Source of the DNA: Thermodesulfobacteriota bacterium
GTDB lineage: Bacteria; Desulfobacterota; DSM-4660; Desulfatiglandales; HGW-15
Assembly: GCA_025454125.1 (NCBI GenBank)
Contig: JALOPA010000059.1
Span: 1-8,211, forward strand
Direction of reading: 5' to 3'
Length of the DNA: 8,211 nucleotides
The notes below the pieces were generated by a model that ran no database searches, had not been told where the DNA came from, and worked only from the letters and a program-made list of their open reading frames with translations. Positions 2,147 to 7,958 of this stretch are shown piece by piece. Positions within the stretch are counted from its first letter, which is position 1. Every line of letters starts with the position of its first letter. The position numbers were made by a program, and so were the translations under genes.

Positions 2147-4069
2147 CTAGAGGGATCCCCCGACGCCGCCCCCCGAGGCGATGGTTCTTGGCCGGAGCCC
2201 CCCAAGCTTCGCCAGCTCACGGAGGATCTCCCCCTTCTCTTTGACGATGGCCTCCCGGCGGTCCAAGTCCATGGTTAGGTAGGGCTCGTTCAACTCACGC
2301 TCGATCTCCCCAAGCTTGAGGGTGAGCACTTTCTTGTGCACCAAGAGGTGCAGCAGAAATGCGTCTCCGCCCTCAAGCCGTTTAGCCCGCCTGGCCTTGG
2401 CTTCACGCATTACAGCGACGGCCAGCGGGGAGGCGGGAACGCCCCCATTCTCGGCGATCTCGAGCACCAGGTGGCCGTGAGGTAAAACCTCCCATTCCCA
2501 GGCTGGGACATTCCGGACCGCATCCAGGCCGCGGGCGTCCCCATCGGCCATGTATTCCAGGGCGAGCCAGATTTCCTTTTCAAGGGCCGGCAAGGGGAGC
2601 ACCTCAGCACTGGGCTTCCCCCCCGCTTTTGGCGCCAAGGCGGCCTCCTGGCGTTGCCGTTGCCGGTTCCCTTGGGCTTCCTTCCGCACGGAGTCCAGAC
2701 AGCTCAAGAGCTGCCCAATGGACGTTTTGGCTTCCGCAGCCAAGGCCTCCAGGATCAGCCGCGGGGGAGCCACGCGGGGATACCCTTCGCATAGGAACTC
2801 GCCGAGAAGCTGGAGCAGGCGCATCCGGTCCTGCACACTGTCCTCGCGGAGCCTGTGGGTCTCTTTGAGGTGGGCAATGATCCACGCGGTCCACTCTTGG
2901 CTTTGCCGTGGCGAGGCCAAGAGCCGCTTCACCGCCTCCCCCCCGTACCGGCGAACCGTCTCATCGGGATCGAGCTTAGAGCCACCCGCTTCGGCGGGTT
3001 TCTGCCGCAGGATGACAACCCTGAGATTGGCGGCCAGGAGTTTCGGCAGGGCTTTCTCGGTGGCTTTCATCCCGGCTTGGTCCGGGTCGAGCCAGATGAT
3101 GACGGAGTCCGTCCCGCGGGCGATTTCCTGAGCTTGTTCCTCAGTCAACGCGGAACCCATGACCCCAACGGCGGGCATACCTGCGGCCTCAAGGCTTAGG
3201 ACGTCGAAGTATCCTTCCGCTAGGACCCACGGCAATCGACTGGTGCGCTTCGAGAGAGCTTCGGCCAGCCCGAACAAGAGGTCTCTTTTGCGGAACAGGA
3301 AGGTTTCTGGGCCATTCAGGTATTTCGACGCCTCGGTTGAATCCGGCAAAGCAGTGACGACCGCGCCCTCCAGGGCACGCCCCGCAAAGGAAACGGGCCT
3401 CCCGGTGCGATTCCGGATCGGAATGACCAAGCGGTGTCGCAGGAAATCCACAGGCCGGCCACTCCGCTGGCTGCGCCGGACCAGCCCGCTTTCAACCATC
3501 TCGTCGTAGCTGTAACCCAGGCCCCGCAGGTGGGCCGCCAAGCTGTCCCATTGGTCCGGGGCATACCCCAGACGTTGCGCAATGGCATCCGGCAGAGCAC
3601 GCGCCTTGAGGGCCTCCAGGGCCAGTCGTGAACCGGGGGTATCTCCCTGCCATAGCTGGGCCCGGAAGAAGGCATCTACGGCCTCCAGGAGCCCACAGAA
3701 CCGCTCCCGCTTTTCCCGTGCGGCATCCCGGTCCGTGGGCCCTTGGTCACCGCCATAAACCCTCCACTCAGAGCCCAGATCCACGCCTCCAAGATGGGCC
3801 AGGTATTCCACAGCCTCATGAAAGCTCATCCCATCCAGCTCGGTGAGCCAGGTCAGGACGTCGCCGGACTTCTTGCAGGTGCTGGCGAAACAGTGGAAGC
3901 CCCGCAAGGGGTCGGAGTAGATGTGAAGCGAAGGTTTTTGGTCGTCATGAAAGGGGCAACAGACGGTCCAACCGCCCGGAACGACGTGGATTCTAAGCCC
4001 CCGCCGCTCCGCCAGTTCCCGAACATGGAGCGCCCGGAGTAACTGCTCTCGAAGGGCTGCGCTCAGCAT
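2147..4069 (-). CDS. dnaG: DnaG-type DNA primase
   Basis: This 640-residue protein makes RNA primers at the replication fork. Residues 36-70 form the CHC2 zinc-binding domain, with probable ligands C38, H41, C60 and C65. The last pair is spaced C-x4-C where DnaG normally has C-x2-C, and an extra C37 is present. Residues 213-271 are the basic N-terminal part of the catalytic core (RLVIPIRNRTGRPVSFAGR, then KYLNGPETFLFRKRDLLFG). The TOPRIM domain follows, with the EGYFD glutamate at 285 and DPD metal-binding aspartates at 328-330, then DPDE at 367-370. Residues from about 400 onward are helical and include a Gln/Arg-rich linker near 465-480; by analogy the C-terminus would contact the helicase. 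E. coli DnaG is 581 residues, so this one is slightly longer. The ATG lies 2 nt after the helicase stop with AGGGG upstream, so the two are probably coupled. Identity is firm. It is probably the element's own copy rather than the host's. Confidence 0.93.
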   Translation of the reverse strand: MLSAALREQLLRALHVRELAERRGLRIHVVPGGWTVCCPFHDDQKPSLHIYSDPLRGFHCFASTCKKSGDVLTWLTELDGMSFHEAVEYLAHLGGVDLGSEWRVYGGDQGPTDRDAAREKRERFCGLLEAVDAFFRAQLWQGDTPGSRLALEALKARALPDAIAQRLGYAPDQWDSLAAHLRGLGYSYDEMVESGLVRRSQRSGRPVDFLRHRLVIPIRNRTGRPVSFAGRALEGAVVTALPDSTEASKYLNGPETFLFRKRDLLFGLAEALSKRTSRLPWVLAEGYFDVLSLEAAGMPAVGVMGSALTEEQAQEIARGTDSVIIWLDPDQAGMKATEKALPKLLAANLRVVILRQKPAEAGGSKLDPDETVRRYGGEAVKRLLASPRQSQEWTAWIIAHLKETHRLREDSVQDRMRLLQLLGEFLCEGYPRVAPPRLILEALAAEAKTSIGQLLSCLDSVRKEAQGNRQRQRQEAALAPKAGGKPSAEVLPLPALEKEIWLALEYMADGDARGLDAVRNVPAWEWEVLPHGHLVLEIAENGGVPASPLAVAVMREAKARRAKRLEGGDAFLLHLLVHKKVLTLKLGEIERELNEPYLTMDLDRREAIVKEKGEILRELAKLGGLRPRTIASGGGVGGSL

Positions 4070-4071
4070 GG

Positions 4072-5565
4072 CTAGCCCCTACCTTCTTCGTCAGGCGGAA
4101 TCAGGGCGCGGCGCTGCAGTCTGGCCGGAGGCTGCACGGGGCCACCGCTGCCGTCCGTGTACCGCTCGATCTGGCGGAAATCAGTCCTGGACATATAGAA
4201 CGCCAGCATCCAACGGCCTTTCGGGCCTTTGCGATGTTTTACAATTTCCGCCCAAACCTCCACATACTCCGGCTCGGGTGAATCTTCTGCAGGTGGACGG
4301 TTACTCGCGTCATACAGGAACATGATGACGTCGGCATCGGCCTCAATGGCTCCCGAATCGCGGAGGTCGGACATTTGGGGCCTCCCACCCTGACGGTGCT
4401 CAATCTCGCGATTCAACTGGCTGAGCAGCACCACAGGAGTCCGTAGCCCATTGGCGATCTTGGTCTTGATGGCACGACTGATTTCACCCAAAGCCGTTGC
4501 GAGGTTCCCAGAGGAGTCGGAGCCGGACGTATCAAAGAGCTGGAGGTAATCGATGACCACCAGGGAAGGGGGGGTCCCCTTCTGGAGCGTCTTGGCCTGC
4601 AGGGCCGCAATCACGTCGCCTATGGCGCTGAACGAAGAGTCGTAGAGCACGATCTGTCGTGCCTTTATACCCTCAAGAGCTTCCCTGATCACTTCCAGGT
4701 CGTCGTCTTGGAGGTGCCCAGCCTGCAGCCGCCGTGTGTCTATTCCGGTCGACGTGGCGATTTCGCGCTCAAGAATATCCTCCTCAGTCATTTCCAGAGA
4801 CACGAAAGCCGCCCAGCGACTGGGGTCTTGAGAGGCGGTCGTGCGCAGGAACTTGGCGGCCAGCGAGGTTTTACCTTTGCCAGGCCGCGCCGCCAGAACC
4901 AGCACACTCCCAGGCCTCAATGAACCGCCGAGGCAGTGGTCGATATTACTGATCCCACAGCGTGCGCCGGCATACCGTGTTTTGTCATCCCGGTGCTCAA
5001 CGTTCTCAAGGATGTTCTCCATCACTTGTTCACCAACCTCAGCGAAGGTGACGCCTTGAAGGCGGTCTTGAGCACCTTGTTGATTCTCGATCCGGAGGAG
5101 GTCCTGGGTGATGTCTGAAATGAGTTCCCGCGCAGGCTTAGCCCCAGCAGCAGCTTCCCTTTCCAGGTTTTGCCCCAACGCTGTGAGCCTTCGGAGGTCG
5201 TTGAATTCCTGGAGGGTGCGCAAGCCCTCATCAAGGTTGCTGATCGCTCCGGCGTAGAGCAGATATTCCTCTAGAGCTTCCCAGTCAGCAACGGTGCCTC
5301 TGGGTATTTCGCGATAGATCCGTTGGGTGTCTGCGACCGCAGCGACACCACCTCTCGCTTCATCCACCCACAGGTCCAACATCGCGCTCGCGATCGCCTG
5401 GTTGCGTGGCACAAAGAAAAAGGGCGTCCGGCTATTGTCCATAGCGCGTTTGAGCCCCGCGAGCACAGGCAGCAAGTCTCGCTCTCGACTGGAGATAGAA
5501 GCGGCCATCACAACGCCCGAAAGGAAGGCTCGCTCTAGGTCTTCGATTTCGCTGCGTTCACGCAT
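4072..5565 (-). CDS. dnaB: DnaB-type replicative DNA helicase
   Basis: This 497-residue protein would be the hexameric 5'-3' helicase of the element's replication fork. Residues 1 to about 150 are helical and match the DnaB N-terminal/linker region in position. The RecA-fold motor follows: Walker A ARPGKGKT at 226-233, catalytic glutamate in SLEM at 257-260, Walker B LVVIDYLQLF at 335-344, LSQLNREIEHR at 381-391, MSDLRDSGAIEADADVI at 398-414, and KHRKGPKG at 443-450, where the DnaB arginine finger lies. All key residues are present. I chose the ATG at 5565, which overlaps the upstream stop as ATGCGTGA and has GGAG at 7 nt. An in-frame upstream ATG at 5595 would add 10 residues but lies deeper in the upstream gene. 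Primase follows after 2 nt. RadA or phage Twinkle-like helicases are excluded by the DnaB-specific motif order. Confidence 0.94.
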   Translation of the reverse strand: MRERSEIEDLERAFLSGVVMAASISSRERDLLPVLAGLKRAMDNSRTPFFFVPRNQAIASAMLDLWVDEARGGVAAVADTQRIYREIPRGTVADWEALEEYLLYAGAISNLDEGLRTLQEFNDLRRLTALGQNLEREAAAGAKPARELISDITQDLLRIENQQGAQDRLQGVTFAEVGEQVMENILENVEHRDDKTRYAGARCGISNIDHCLGGSLRPGSVLVLAARPGKGKTSLAAKFLRTTASQDPSRWAAFVSLEMTEEDILEREIATSTGIDTRRLQAGHLQDDDLEVIREALEGIKARQIVLYDSSFSAIGDVIAALQAKTLQKGTPPSLVVIDYLQLFDTSGSDSSGNLATALGEISRAIKTKIANGLRTPVVLLSQLNREIEHRQGGRPQMSDLRDSGAIEADADVIMFLYDASNRPPAEDSPEPEYVEVWAEIVKHRKGPKGRWMLAFYMSRTDFRQIERYTDGSGGPVQPPARLQRRALIPPDEEGRG

Positions 5566-5923
5566 TGAGGATCTCCGTCCGGCTGGTTGTGGCAATGATT
5601 CGGGCCAAAATTTGGCCCTGCTCTTCCAGCATCTGCTGGAGGACGGTTTCCGGGTTTTCCTTGTGGCCTAAGGCTTGGAGGGATTTAAGAACCTCGACGT
5701 TGATTCGCGCCTTGTAGGTCATCACGACGTGCGCCGGGTCATCCCCATCCTCACACGTCTGTGGCCAGAGGTAGATTCCACGCCCGTTGGCAGCCTTCAA
5801 CGTGTCGTATAGTTGGCTGGTTGTGCGCCGGGCGAGTTCGGTGCCGTAGCTCCGCAACACCCGAGGTGCCGTGATGTGAACCAGGATTTCCAGTTCACTG
5901 CTGGTGCGCTCATCCGGCAACAT
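5558..5923 (-). CDS. Orphan 121-residue protein between initiator and helicase
   Basis: I do not recognise this protein. It starts MLPDERTSSELEILVHI and has no P-loop, signal peptide, membrane segment or cysteine pair. The first two thirds look like a mixed alpha/beta domain, with hydrophobic strands such as LEILVHITAP and HVVMTYKARINVEV. The last 40 residues are a helical, amphipathic stretch including ETVLQQMLEEQGQILARII. The ATG at 5923 has GAGG at 6 nt; an upstream in-frame ATG at 5935 would add four residues but has a weaker site. It overlaps the initiator stop by 14 nt and the helicase start by 8 nt, so the three are surely co-translated. Genes in this position in phage and plasmid operons often encode helicase loaders or initiator accessory factors. 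That is the best guess, but it rests only on position. It does not resemble ATP-dependent DnaC-type loaders. Confidence 0.75.
   Translation of the reverse strand: MLPDERTSSELEILVHITAPRVLRSYGTELARRTTSQLYDTLKAANGRGIYLWPQTCEDGDDPAHVVMTYKARINVEVLKSLQALGHKENPETVLQQMLEEQGQILARIIATTSRTEILNA
5573..5576 (-). promoter_or_regulatory. Shine-Dalgarno deciding the helicase start
   Basis: GGAG on the minus strand lies 7 nt before the ATG at 5565, inside the last codons of the upstream gene. No comparable motif was noted for the earlier in-frame ATG at 5595. This supports the 497-residue form and translational coupling to the 121-residue gene. Confidence 0.55.
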
Positions 5924-7958
5924 CAGCAGCCTCATCTTCGATTTGTTTGGCGACGTCGTTCATGATCGCAATGAACTTGTTCACTATGGTGGGCCCAAGG
6001 GCTCCCACCAGTGGTCGTTGTTGGTTTTGTCGGTCGAAAAGGTAGCGGTCCAACCGCCCAAGCTCCTGGCTAAGGGTGTGTGCGGTGCCCTTCATGTATT
6101 TCTCGGCGCACCCCAAGGCCTCTATCCAGGCCGCGATCGCCTCACAGGACTTGAGGTGATCGGATTCGTGCCGTTCCAGAGTGTCATCAAGTGCATCCCA
6201 AGCCGCAGCCAGGCGTTCTGCAAGGACGGTTCCGATGGGAGTTTTCCCTTGTTGTAAGCGTGTGAGGTATTGTGTCGCTCTCCGCAAGGGTGCGATGTTC
6301 CACTGCCGGCTGTTCGGGGTTTGCCCGTAGCCTTGTTTCACGCCCCATGGCCGTAGGGAAGGCGTTTCTGCGTAGGCGGCTAGCGCGATCGCATAGACGC
6401 CCAACGTGTCCTCGGGTCCGTATCCAGTCAGCAACTCAGCCGGGGCGATAGCCTGACTGGCACACAACTTCCCAAGCAACTCGGGTGGACTTTGGCAGGT
6501 GGTGGCTGTGGGTTTTGTGGGAGGGAGGGTCGGGGATATCACCCTCTCCCGAGACACCTCCTCGCCCTCTGTTTCCGCGTGTTCCAACCAGAAAGCCACT
6601 TTCTTGGGAGATTGCAGGGTCTCCAGAATCCAGAAGGCTGCGCGTTTTCGTAGTTTCCCCTTCCGCTCACACGCCAGGATTTCCTTCAAGAACCTTAGCG
6701 TCTCGGTAGTTCCCCCCATTTTCTGAACCTGTTCGTGCAGTGCGCTTCGGTGCTCTGCACTCCACTTGATTCCACATTTTTCGAATTCTTCAATCAGCTC
6801 CTGCAAGCTTGTACCGTATGCCCCCTGTTCGGCATCTGAAGGAGGACCTCCCCCCCCTGGGCAGGCAAGGGCAGGCGTTTGGGCCTCAGTCCCCTCGCGC
6901 GCGCGCGGTACCTCCCGGGTACTGCCTGCCGCCTGAGAGGGGTACGTACTTAAAATTCTATTATATGGAAGGGGTTGTTCTCTTCTTCCTTCAGAAGATC
7001 TGTCTGTCTCTTCCAGGGACCTGTCATTGTTTTCCTGACCCCTGTCTTTTTCTTCCGGTGAAGACCTGTCGTTCTTTTCCGGACCCTTGTCTTTTTCTTC
7101 CGGAACCCTGTTGTGTTTATCCTGCAGCCTGTCGGGTCCTTCCGGATCTAACACATCCTCTACTTGGAGGCCTGAGGGAGCCTGGGCAGAAGTGGCCGAG
7201 CCAGGTTGGTCATGTTGAGGCAAAGGAACACCATGGGCGTCTGTCAGGACCAAACCTTCTGGAATAGCGTGCTCGCCGGTCCAGCGAACACGGAGGTAGG
7301 GTTTCTTGCTGCCCACACCCCGCGCGTCGAACCGTTCGAAGGCGCCTAATTGAACCAGTTGGAACAAGCGGTAGCGCAGGCCGCGCTCACCCAAATGGAG
7401 GTGACTTTCGCCTATAACAGCCTCGGCGTGGAACAAGACCGGGGTGTCGACTGAGAGCCCATTCGCGGCCTGCTCCTCGGAAAGGTAGCGGTAGATGGCA
7501 AGCCAGGTGCACCGCAGGGCTGGGCCGAAGTCGGGATTGGCGTGGAATACGAACTCCCGCGGGACCTCAATGCCGCGGAAGCGGGTTGCGAAACCTTTGA
7601 AGGCGGGGTGGGGCGTGGAAACTCCGGCCCAGCGCAACCGGTATTGGTTTCCTCTGGGGTCTGAACCGCCGGGGATGACGTCCAGATACCCAAGGTCCTC
7701 CAGGGCGCGGAGAAGCTTCCGAGTGCGCCGAGCGTCTTGGGCAGCCAAGCCGAGCGCAGTCTGGATGGTCGCCATTTGAAGGTGAAAATAGCCGAATTCA
7801 TTGGCTGTTGTGCCAAAAAGCCGCGCAGAGCCATGGGTAAGGCTTTGAATGGCGACCAAAGTCCACCGAAGTTCATCCGAGATGGGGAGCGTGAGCAGAT
7901 CTGGGTGGGTTCGGAAGTAGTTCTGGCGTAGCGGATGAAGGCGGGGCACTGGGTTCAT
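5910..7958 (-). CDS. Putative replication initiator with two winged-helix domains and a repeat linker
   Basis: This 682-residue protein begins MNPVPRLHPLRQNYF. Two DNA-binding-type regions follow. At about 26-110 a helix-rich segment contains MATIQTALGLAAQDARR, then LRALEDLGYLDVI and a wing ending YRLRW. At about 149-225 a second module contains LRYRLFQLVQLGAFERF and ends LRVRW. Tandem winged helices are the architecture of Rep_3-type plasmid initiators and a single one that of lambda O, but no family signature was confirmed. Residues 272-322 are charged tandem repeats with a 15-residue period (PEEKDKG then PEKNDRSS, PEEKDRG then QENNDRSL). A Pro/Gly-rich linker follows, then a helical C-terminal half from about 385 that could bind the orphan protein or helicase. 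The ATG at 7958 overlaps the upstream stop as ATGA and has AAGG at 7 nt; an earlier in-frame start at 7991 is less likely. The initiator role is inferred from domains plus the helicase/primase context. Confidence 0.68.
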   Translation of the reverse strand: MNPVPRLHPLRQNYFRTHPDLLTLPISDELRWTLVAIQSLTHGSARLFGTTANEFGYFHLQMATIQTALGLAAQDARRTRKLLRALEDLGYLDVIPGGSDPRGNQYRLRWAGVSTPHPAFKGFATRFRGIEVPREFVFHANPDFGPALRCTWLAIYRYLSEEQAANGLSVDTPVLFHAEAVIGESHLHLGERGLRYRLFQLVQLGAFERFDARGVGSKKPYLRVRWTGEHAIPEGLVLTDAHGVPLPQHDQPGSATSAQAPSGLQVEDVLDPEGPDRLQDKHNRVPEEKDKGPEKNDRSSPEEKDRGQENNDRSLEETDRSSEGRREQPLPYNRILSTYPSQAAGSTREVPRAREGTEAQTPALACPGGGGPPSDAEQGAYGTSLQELIEEFEKCGIKWSAEHRSALHEQVQKMGGTTETLRFLKEILACERKGKLRKRAAFWILETLQSPKKVAFWLEHAETEGEEVSRERVISPTLPPTKPTATTCQSPPELLGKLCASQAIAPAELLTGYGPEDTLGVYAIALAAYAETPSLRPWGVKQGYGQTPNSRQWNIAPLRRATQYLTRLQQGKTPIGTVLAERLAAAWDALDDTLERHESDHLKSCEAIAAWIEALGCAEKYMKGTAHTLSQELGRLDRYLFDRQNQQRPLVGALGPTIVNKFIAIMNDVAKQIEDEAADVAG
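6896..6907. repeat. (CG)6 dinucleotide run
   Basis: Six perfect CG dinucleotides occur within the initiator linker, encoding alternating Arg and Ala. The run can adopt Z-DNA when supercoiled. It sits about 35 bp from the AT-rich patch. It may simply reflect high GC coding of a low-complexity linker. Confidence 0.55.
6942..6971. other. AT-rich patch beside the repeats, candidate DNA unwinding element
   Basis: Within the GC-rich initiator gene the plus strand here includes TTAAAATTCTATTATATGG. It encodes LPYNRILSTY and lies about 20 bp from the last iteron-like unit. In lambda ori an AT-rich segment follows the O-binding iterons inside gene O in the same way. A role as the melting site is inferred. 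Confidence 0.45.
6993..7145 (-). repeat. Seven tandem 21-24 bp iteron-like units inside the initiator gene
   Basis: On the minus strand the units lie at 7145-7125, 7124-7104, 7103-7083, 7082-7059, 7058-7038, 7037-7014 and 7013-6993. They share a core like GGAAGAAAAAGACAGG. Units alternate 21 and 24 bp in the central part, giving a 45-bp higher-order period. The units at 7103 and 7058 differ by a single base over the first 21 bp. The period of about two helical turns, head-to-tail order and location beside an AT-rich patch resemble plasmid or lambda iterons. The units keep the reading frame and encode a charged linker, so selection on the protein alone is the alternative explanation. Confidence 0.8.

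Follow-up and report, generated by a model that had tools for sequence, protein, structure and literature searches.

Origins of replication located inside the gene of their own initiator protein are already established for phage lambda, plasmid pSK41 and phage Tuc2009. Lambda relies on the helicase and primase of its host. The annotation of NC_001416 places the lambda iterons within the O gene. PMC6022878 describes them as four 18-bp mid-gene iterons with dyad symmetry, with an AT-rich unwinding region on their coding-downstream side. For pSK41, PMC5703833 reports four Rep boxes located centrally in rep, the gene of a 319-aa initiator; the boxes are bound by the N-terminal domain of Rep, and the central linker that they encode is dispensable. 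The orf16 (Rep) gene of the lactococcal phage Tuc2009, annotated as encoding a DnaD-like helicase loader, carries central tandem repeats with a best period of 15, and the record of this phage notes an origin of replication within the gene.

Here we analyse an 8,211-nucleotide stretch of DNA, referred to as the window, in which a putative replication initiator gene, rep, carries a central array of seven 21-bp units with an AT-rich patch on its coding-downstream side (Table 1). The mid-gene repeats and the side on which the AT-rich region lies recall lambda O/ori, and the central location of repeats in a putative initiator gene resembles that in pSK41 and Tuc2009. The likeness to the lambda layout, proposed in the preliminary description of this locus, holds for these two elements but does not extend to symmetry: no dyad was seen by eye in the units, and at lengths of 12 bp and above the repeat finder detected no inverted repeats within the array. 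Consequently, the units look more like the asymmetric iterons of plasmids. Unlike in lambda, genes for a helicase and a primase lie beside rep; unlike the 319-aa protein of pSK41, Rep is 682 aa long and matches no RepA_N model; and its repeat period of 21 differs from that of Tuc2009 orf16. We propose that the array and the adjacent patch are probably the replication origin of the element itself, which would be functionally of the same kind as these three origins. The main point of interest is then the initiator, which is without known relatives.

Table 1. Coordinates of the genes, the repeat array and the other features of the window.
Feature	Position	Strand	Remarks
rep, putative replication initiator gene	5910-7958	minus	682 aa, ATG start
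Rep protein layout			N-terminal part (residues 1-271), then repeat-encoded charged linker, then C-terminal part
Iteron-like array, seven 21-bp units	6996-7145	minus	consensus CCGGAAGAAAAAGACAGGGCT
Array units	7125-7145, 7104-7124, 7083-7103, 7062-7082, 7038-7058, 7017-7037, 6996-7016	minus
Possible degenerate eighth unit	6975-6995	minus	purine-rich, without GACAGG core, read from sequence
AT-rich patch, candidate duplex-unwinding element	6946-6965	none	85% AT; coding-downstream side of array
125-aa protein, function not assigned	5558-5935	minus	best Pfam E 0.17, below cut-off
DnaB-like replicative helicase gene	4072-5565	minus	PF03796 E 5.2e-59; phrog_19 E 7.5e-57
DnaG-like primase gene	2147-4069	minus	PF08275 E 4.6e-25; phrog_6444 E 9.8e-74
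Intergenic region	1786-2146	none	rival origin or partition site
ParA-like partition ATPase gene	550-1785	minus	PF13614 E 8.6e-08; phrog_164 E 3.5e-10
Possible ribbon-helix-helix partner of ParA	2-553	minus	open at window edge

Gene organization and relatives of the neighbouring genes

The minus strand carries all genes taken as real in the window. rep overlaps the gene of the 125-aa protein by 26 bp, the latter overlaps the DnaB-like gene by 8 bp, and the DnaG-like gene starts 2 bp past the DnaB-like gene. Because of these overlaps and of the 2-bp junction, the four genes presumably form a single operon, with rep at the apparent head and the helicase and primase genes, which match Pfam and phrog profiles, downstream. 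From this gene order we infer that Rep is the initiator, and the position of its gene suggests that the 125-aa protein is a loader or an accessory protein. The product of the gene at the window edge scored E 0.14 with RHH_1, below the curated cut-off. The start of rep was set at the ATG at 7958, following the identical 682-aa protein P0001, which is encoded on one 56.9-kb JGI contig.

The primase has 197 protein relatives (the best 120 of the 197 being listed), which were then aligned. Relative P0003, full-length at 641 aa, 46% identical and encoded on a 29.7-kb contig, points to a sister replicon. A scan of viral contigs with the primase only yielded no relative (34 stretches), a search with an alignment of two primases recovered loci in viral contigs (2) and in genomes (13), and distant plasmid relatives were found in 249 records. 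Distant relatives of the helicase occur in 1258 phage and 1236 plasmid records, the best place of each being below 60% identity; their neighbours were inspected in five phage loci. No relative of ParA was found in viral contigs or plasmids. When six window proteins were compared by tblastn (E up to 1) with 16 loci (L001-L016), the primase was found in 15 loci, the helicase in L001 only, and a 184-aa window protein gave one weak match in L009 (29 residues, E 0.18), while Rep, the 125-aa protein and ParA had no match in these loci. The viral contig fragment L003 carries near its end (20861-21042) a tandem array with strong periods of 18, 24, 42 and 66 bp (GCAGAAGCAAAAGC...), which is probably a protein repeat rich in Ala, Lys and Glu.

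The Rep protein

No significant initiator family model was found for Rep among Pfam and phrog profiles. The whole protein gave very weak matches to phrog_345 (replication initiation O-like, E 0.031), phrog_1701 (DnaD-like, E 0.042) and DUF922 (E 0.042). The phrog_345 match spans residues 188-352 of a 693-aa reading of the protein, linker included, and both initiator matches vanished when pieces of Rep leaving the linker out were searched; no convincing sequence relation thus links Rep to lambda O. RepA_N was not matched by whole Rep at E 0.1, nor any Pfam model by three N-terminal pieces at E 5, and Pfam searches returned no Rep_3 domain.

Homologues were sought in several collections, and none was confirmed in IMG/VR (2 stretches fitted a pattern), in GTDB contigs (14 stretches), among plasmids or among phages. 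In a word-sharing search over about 5.8 billion proteins, whole Rep found itself alone among the matches listed (at least 7997 candidates scored), as did residues 1-245 (4066 candidates). Two matches, both at chance level (E 1.8), came from PDB sequences. The N- and C-terminal parts were each modelled from a single sequence, with poor results (mean pLDDT 45 and 48, respectively). The N-terminal model runs helix-helix-helix-strand-strand, then strand-helix-strand-strand-helix-strand-strand, a predicted order compatible with two winged helices, which we take as a lead only. Foldseek returned 293 matches to this model at E up to 10 and zero at E 0.001; since the winged-helix proteins among the 50 matches listed (MarR types, the DnaD N-terminal domain, RTP) are not significant, we draw no conclusion on the fold of Rep.

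Organization of the repeat array

The presence of seven head-to-tail units inside the putative initiator gene, as first described, was borne out by TRF, which detects the array, and by a shuffle test: the seven units average 0.667 in pairwise identity, whereas shuffling the linker codons 5000 times gives a mean of 0.312 (sd 0.024, maximum 0.413). The units match their consensus at 14-20 of 21 positions. A weight matrix built from them scores 20.3-30.6 inside the array and 11.5 at the best other site of the window. Units of 21-24 bp sharing a GACAGG core had been announced; the shared core stands, but the unit is 21 bp long and GACAGG is exact in four of the seven units only, the others having GACAGA, GACAAG or AACAGG (one mismatch each). 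Anchored on this GACAGG-like hexamer, core spacings are 21, 21, 24, 21, 21 and 21, the sole departure being one extra TCA codon (7059-7061). These spacings refute the alternation of 21 and 24 bp claimed earlier, and the supposed 45-bp super-period, a period that TRF also reports, comes down to a single duplicated pair, 7018-7062 / 7063-7103. The possible eighth unit was counted only in the identical-codon test (eight-unit division) described below and was left out of the identity and block tests.

A half-site pattern allowing two mismatches matched the window 23 times, 7 times in the array and 16 times outside, with 11 matches expected by chance. A two-unit iteron pattern had no match in viral contigs. 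Three one-mismatch DnaA boxes occur in the window, below the chance mean of 5.6, and none of them lies in the array. When folded as single-stranded DNA, the 6880-7160 coding strand outdoes 199 of 200 shuffled versions; the repeats may account for this by themselves, and the result was given no weight.

Repeats in other initiator genes

To set a base rate, 15-30-bp periodicity was scored in mechanically called ORFs of at least 100 aa from the loci at hand. Across nine phage loci, eight initiator genes outscored 148 further ORFs (Mann-Whitney p 2.9e-6), including in a length-matched comparison (n=46, p 1.5e-5), and their best repeat sits at 0.41-0.58 of gene length. Four of these controls (lambda, Tuc2009, r1t and A118) were picked for known in-gene origins; the other four, which come from listed helicase matches and were picked without such knowledge, gave p 0.0019. 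Five phage loci were taken from helicase matches, one of which, L022, is without annotated initiator and contributes none. Seven of the eight controls score at least 15. Lambda O itself scores 15, a value reached by 40 of 317 background ORFs, and the L018 initiator scores 10, as do 151 of the 317 or better. On the same measure, 12 of the 317 background ORFs score at or above rep of the window.

This last count speaks for an alternative in which the repeats are a feature of the protein only: a charged and probably disordered linker grown by slippage and duplication of the 21-bp (seven-codon) unit, with no role in cis. The one recent 45-bp duplication visible in the array speaks for the same alternative. 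We consider such an explanation unlikely on the grounds of the codon-level pattern set out in the next section.

Constraint at the DNA or the protein level

Selection on a protein is expected to leave synonymous positions free. In the array, mean conservation at codon positions 1, 2 and 3 is 5.57, 5.43 and 5.43 of 7, about equal, and third positions therefore vary as little as the other two. The best-kept bases fall mainly in two blocks, CNGGAA and GACAGG, separated by about 12 bp from centre to centre. Third positions depart from the consensus in 2 of 28 cases in the blocks and 9 of 21 in the spacer (Fisher p 0.005, an optimistic value since the blocks were defined after the units were seen). 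Where two units have equal amino acids, the same codon is used in 47 of 52 pairs in the blocks and 4 of 10 in the spacer; where the amino acids differ, the third base is equal in 25 of 32 and 19 of 53 pairs, respectively. Codon 1 of the units, for instance, encodes Pro four times, Gln twice and Leu once, always as C-x-G. Third positions kept mainly in two blocks, even across amino-acid changes, are predicted neither by selection on the protein nor by neutral duplication. Likewise, identical codons are used between units in 53 of 71 cases, exceeding the mean of 28 under window-wide codon usage (0 of 5000 resamplings as high).

In favour of a protein-only linker, the linker codons are purine-rich, outside the units too, with AGA or AGG used for all nine Arg codons in 6945-7145, and when the usage of the linker itself is the null, identical-codon use is ordinary (p 0.22), lag-21 identity has p 0.29 and lag-45 identity p 0.04. 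Heterogeneity among columns, compared with random placement of mismatches, has p 0.009 with all seven units, p 0.048 without 7062-7082 and 7083-7103, and p 0.29 without 7017-7037 and 7038-7058. The two recent duplicates differ at five positions, one of them in a GACAGG core, which is about chance level (hand count). The copies of the array are related by duplication and thus not independent. Taken as a pattern of sequence, the third positions of the blocks appear to favour selection on the DNA; because the copies share ancestry, constraint at the DNA level is likely, short of proof.

The AT-rich patch and the intergenic region

The preliminary description placed a rare AT-rich patch about 20 bp past the repeats. 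By calculated stability the patch does rank lowest among all 20-mers of the window, but its distance from the nearest well-preserved unit is 30 bp, shrinking to 9 bp with the degenerate unit included, and a stretch in the intergenic region is less stable over 30, 50, 100 and 200 bp. The patch may also belong to the same compositional shift as the purine-rich linker, as a protein-only linker would have it. In five of the eight control initiators the least stable 20-mer of the gene starts -25 to +80 bp from the repeat end; in the remaining three it is far from it (112, 229 and -364 bp). None of 54 TRF rows (period of at least 15) from 17 other loci had its tandem array at the 20-mer of lowest local stability, the best rank being 4, although this measure misses a true case since the iterons of lambda are themselves absent from its TRF rows. 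About 40 bp beyond the patch, still inside rep, an alternating CG run occurs at 6893-6908 (CGCGCGCGCGCG within a palindrome), possibly a Z-DNA-prone or GC clamp element.

The intergenic region, 361 bp long, is the sole long gap among the genes taken as real; it is GC-poor and strongly pyrimidine-rich on the plus strand. Three 12-bp tandem repeats, one with a mismatch, occupy 1937-1972 (TTTGCCTTGCTC), and one extended -10 promoter-like site, against 1.8 expected by chance, lies at 1901-1873 on the minus strand, upstream of parA. We regard the region as a candidate partition site or rival origin.

With such a region at hand, the array could be a control locus, bound by Rep or another protein and acting in copy number, incompatibility or autoregulation, and replication would start elsewhere, for example in this intergenic region or upstream of rep beyond the window. 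The lower stability of the intergenic region over 30-200 bp and its tandem repeats would suit this possibility, as would the direct repeats upstream of parAB in Deinococcus, which act in maintenance according to PMC7671480. Repeats upstream of parA near a promoter-like site are, however, what is expected of a partition or regulatory site, and no place outside the array approaches the weight-matrix scores of its units. An origin located away from the array seems improbable to us, more so than a protein-only linker.

GC skew

Within the window, the cumulative GC skew has its minimum at 7163, and synonymous codons switch most strongly between G- and C-endings at 7150, a strength matched by 6 of 500 permutations. 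This change occurs at the array and is absent at the intergenic region, which argues, weakly, for an origin in rep over one upstream of parA. Among synonymous codons ending in G or C, G-ending ones make up 31% (33/106) in the part of rep encoding the N-terminal part (7146-7958), 47-50% in the remaining coding segments, the short array excepted, and 7 of 10 in the array itself. The switch is one-sided, with almost no synonymous skew to the left of the array, a pattern that an exchanged N-terminal module would explain no less well than an origin; the codon bias of 7146-7958 could thus mark an exchanged domain. In none of the eight control phage loci does the cumulative minimum fall inside the initiator gene, which makes the skew weak evidence, and the skew turn was dropped as proof of an origin. 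In lambda, within 35-43 kb, the minimum is at 38383, near O.

A putative origin within rep

The proposal that the origin lies in the initiator gene, already put forward in the preliminary description, draws on the third positions of the blocks, the melting patch, the apparent operon, the synonymous skew change and the repeats of other initiators, whereas a significant family model for the initiator is missing and the skew turn is not diagnostic. The array would act in cis as the origin of the replicon, embedded in the gene that encodes its initiator. Its seven iterons would be bound by Rep, mostly on one face of the DNA since they are spaced by two helical turns, each Rep reading the two conserved blocks about one turn apart; two binding domains in Rep would fit this arrangement. 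The assembled complex would then strain and open the AT-rich patch, at which the DnaB-like helicase and the DnaG-like primase encoded downstream would be loaded. At the protein level the same DNA would serve only as a charged, probably flexible linker joining the N- and C-terminal parts. This reading, in which Rep would work on the array and the patch beside it much like lambda O or pSK41 Rep, is the best available and in our view fairly probable. A more elaborate version is offered tentatively and seems to us rather doubtful: Rep would found a new initiator family, two N-terminal winged helices would recognize an asymmetric iteron through two half-sites separated by one helical turn, the origin would also encode the Rep linker, and the element would bring its own helicase and primase.

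If the origin is indeed located in rep, an initiator without known relatives would be added to those proteins of phages and plasmids whose origin sits in a linker-coding segment. Such a layout would then seem to arise repeatedly, perhaps since the binding protein and its site move as one module. The locus would also represent a compact and self-contained replicon module, comprising initiator, helicase, primase and partition functions, from an uncultured element.
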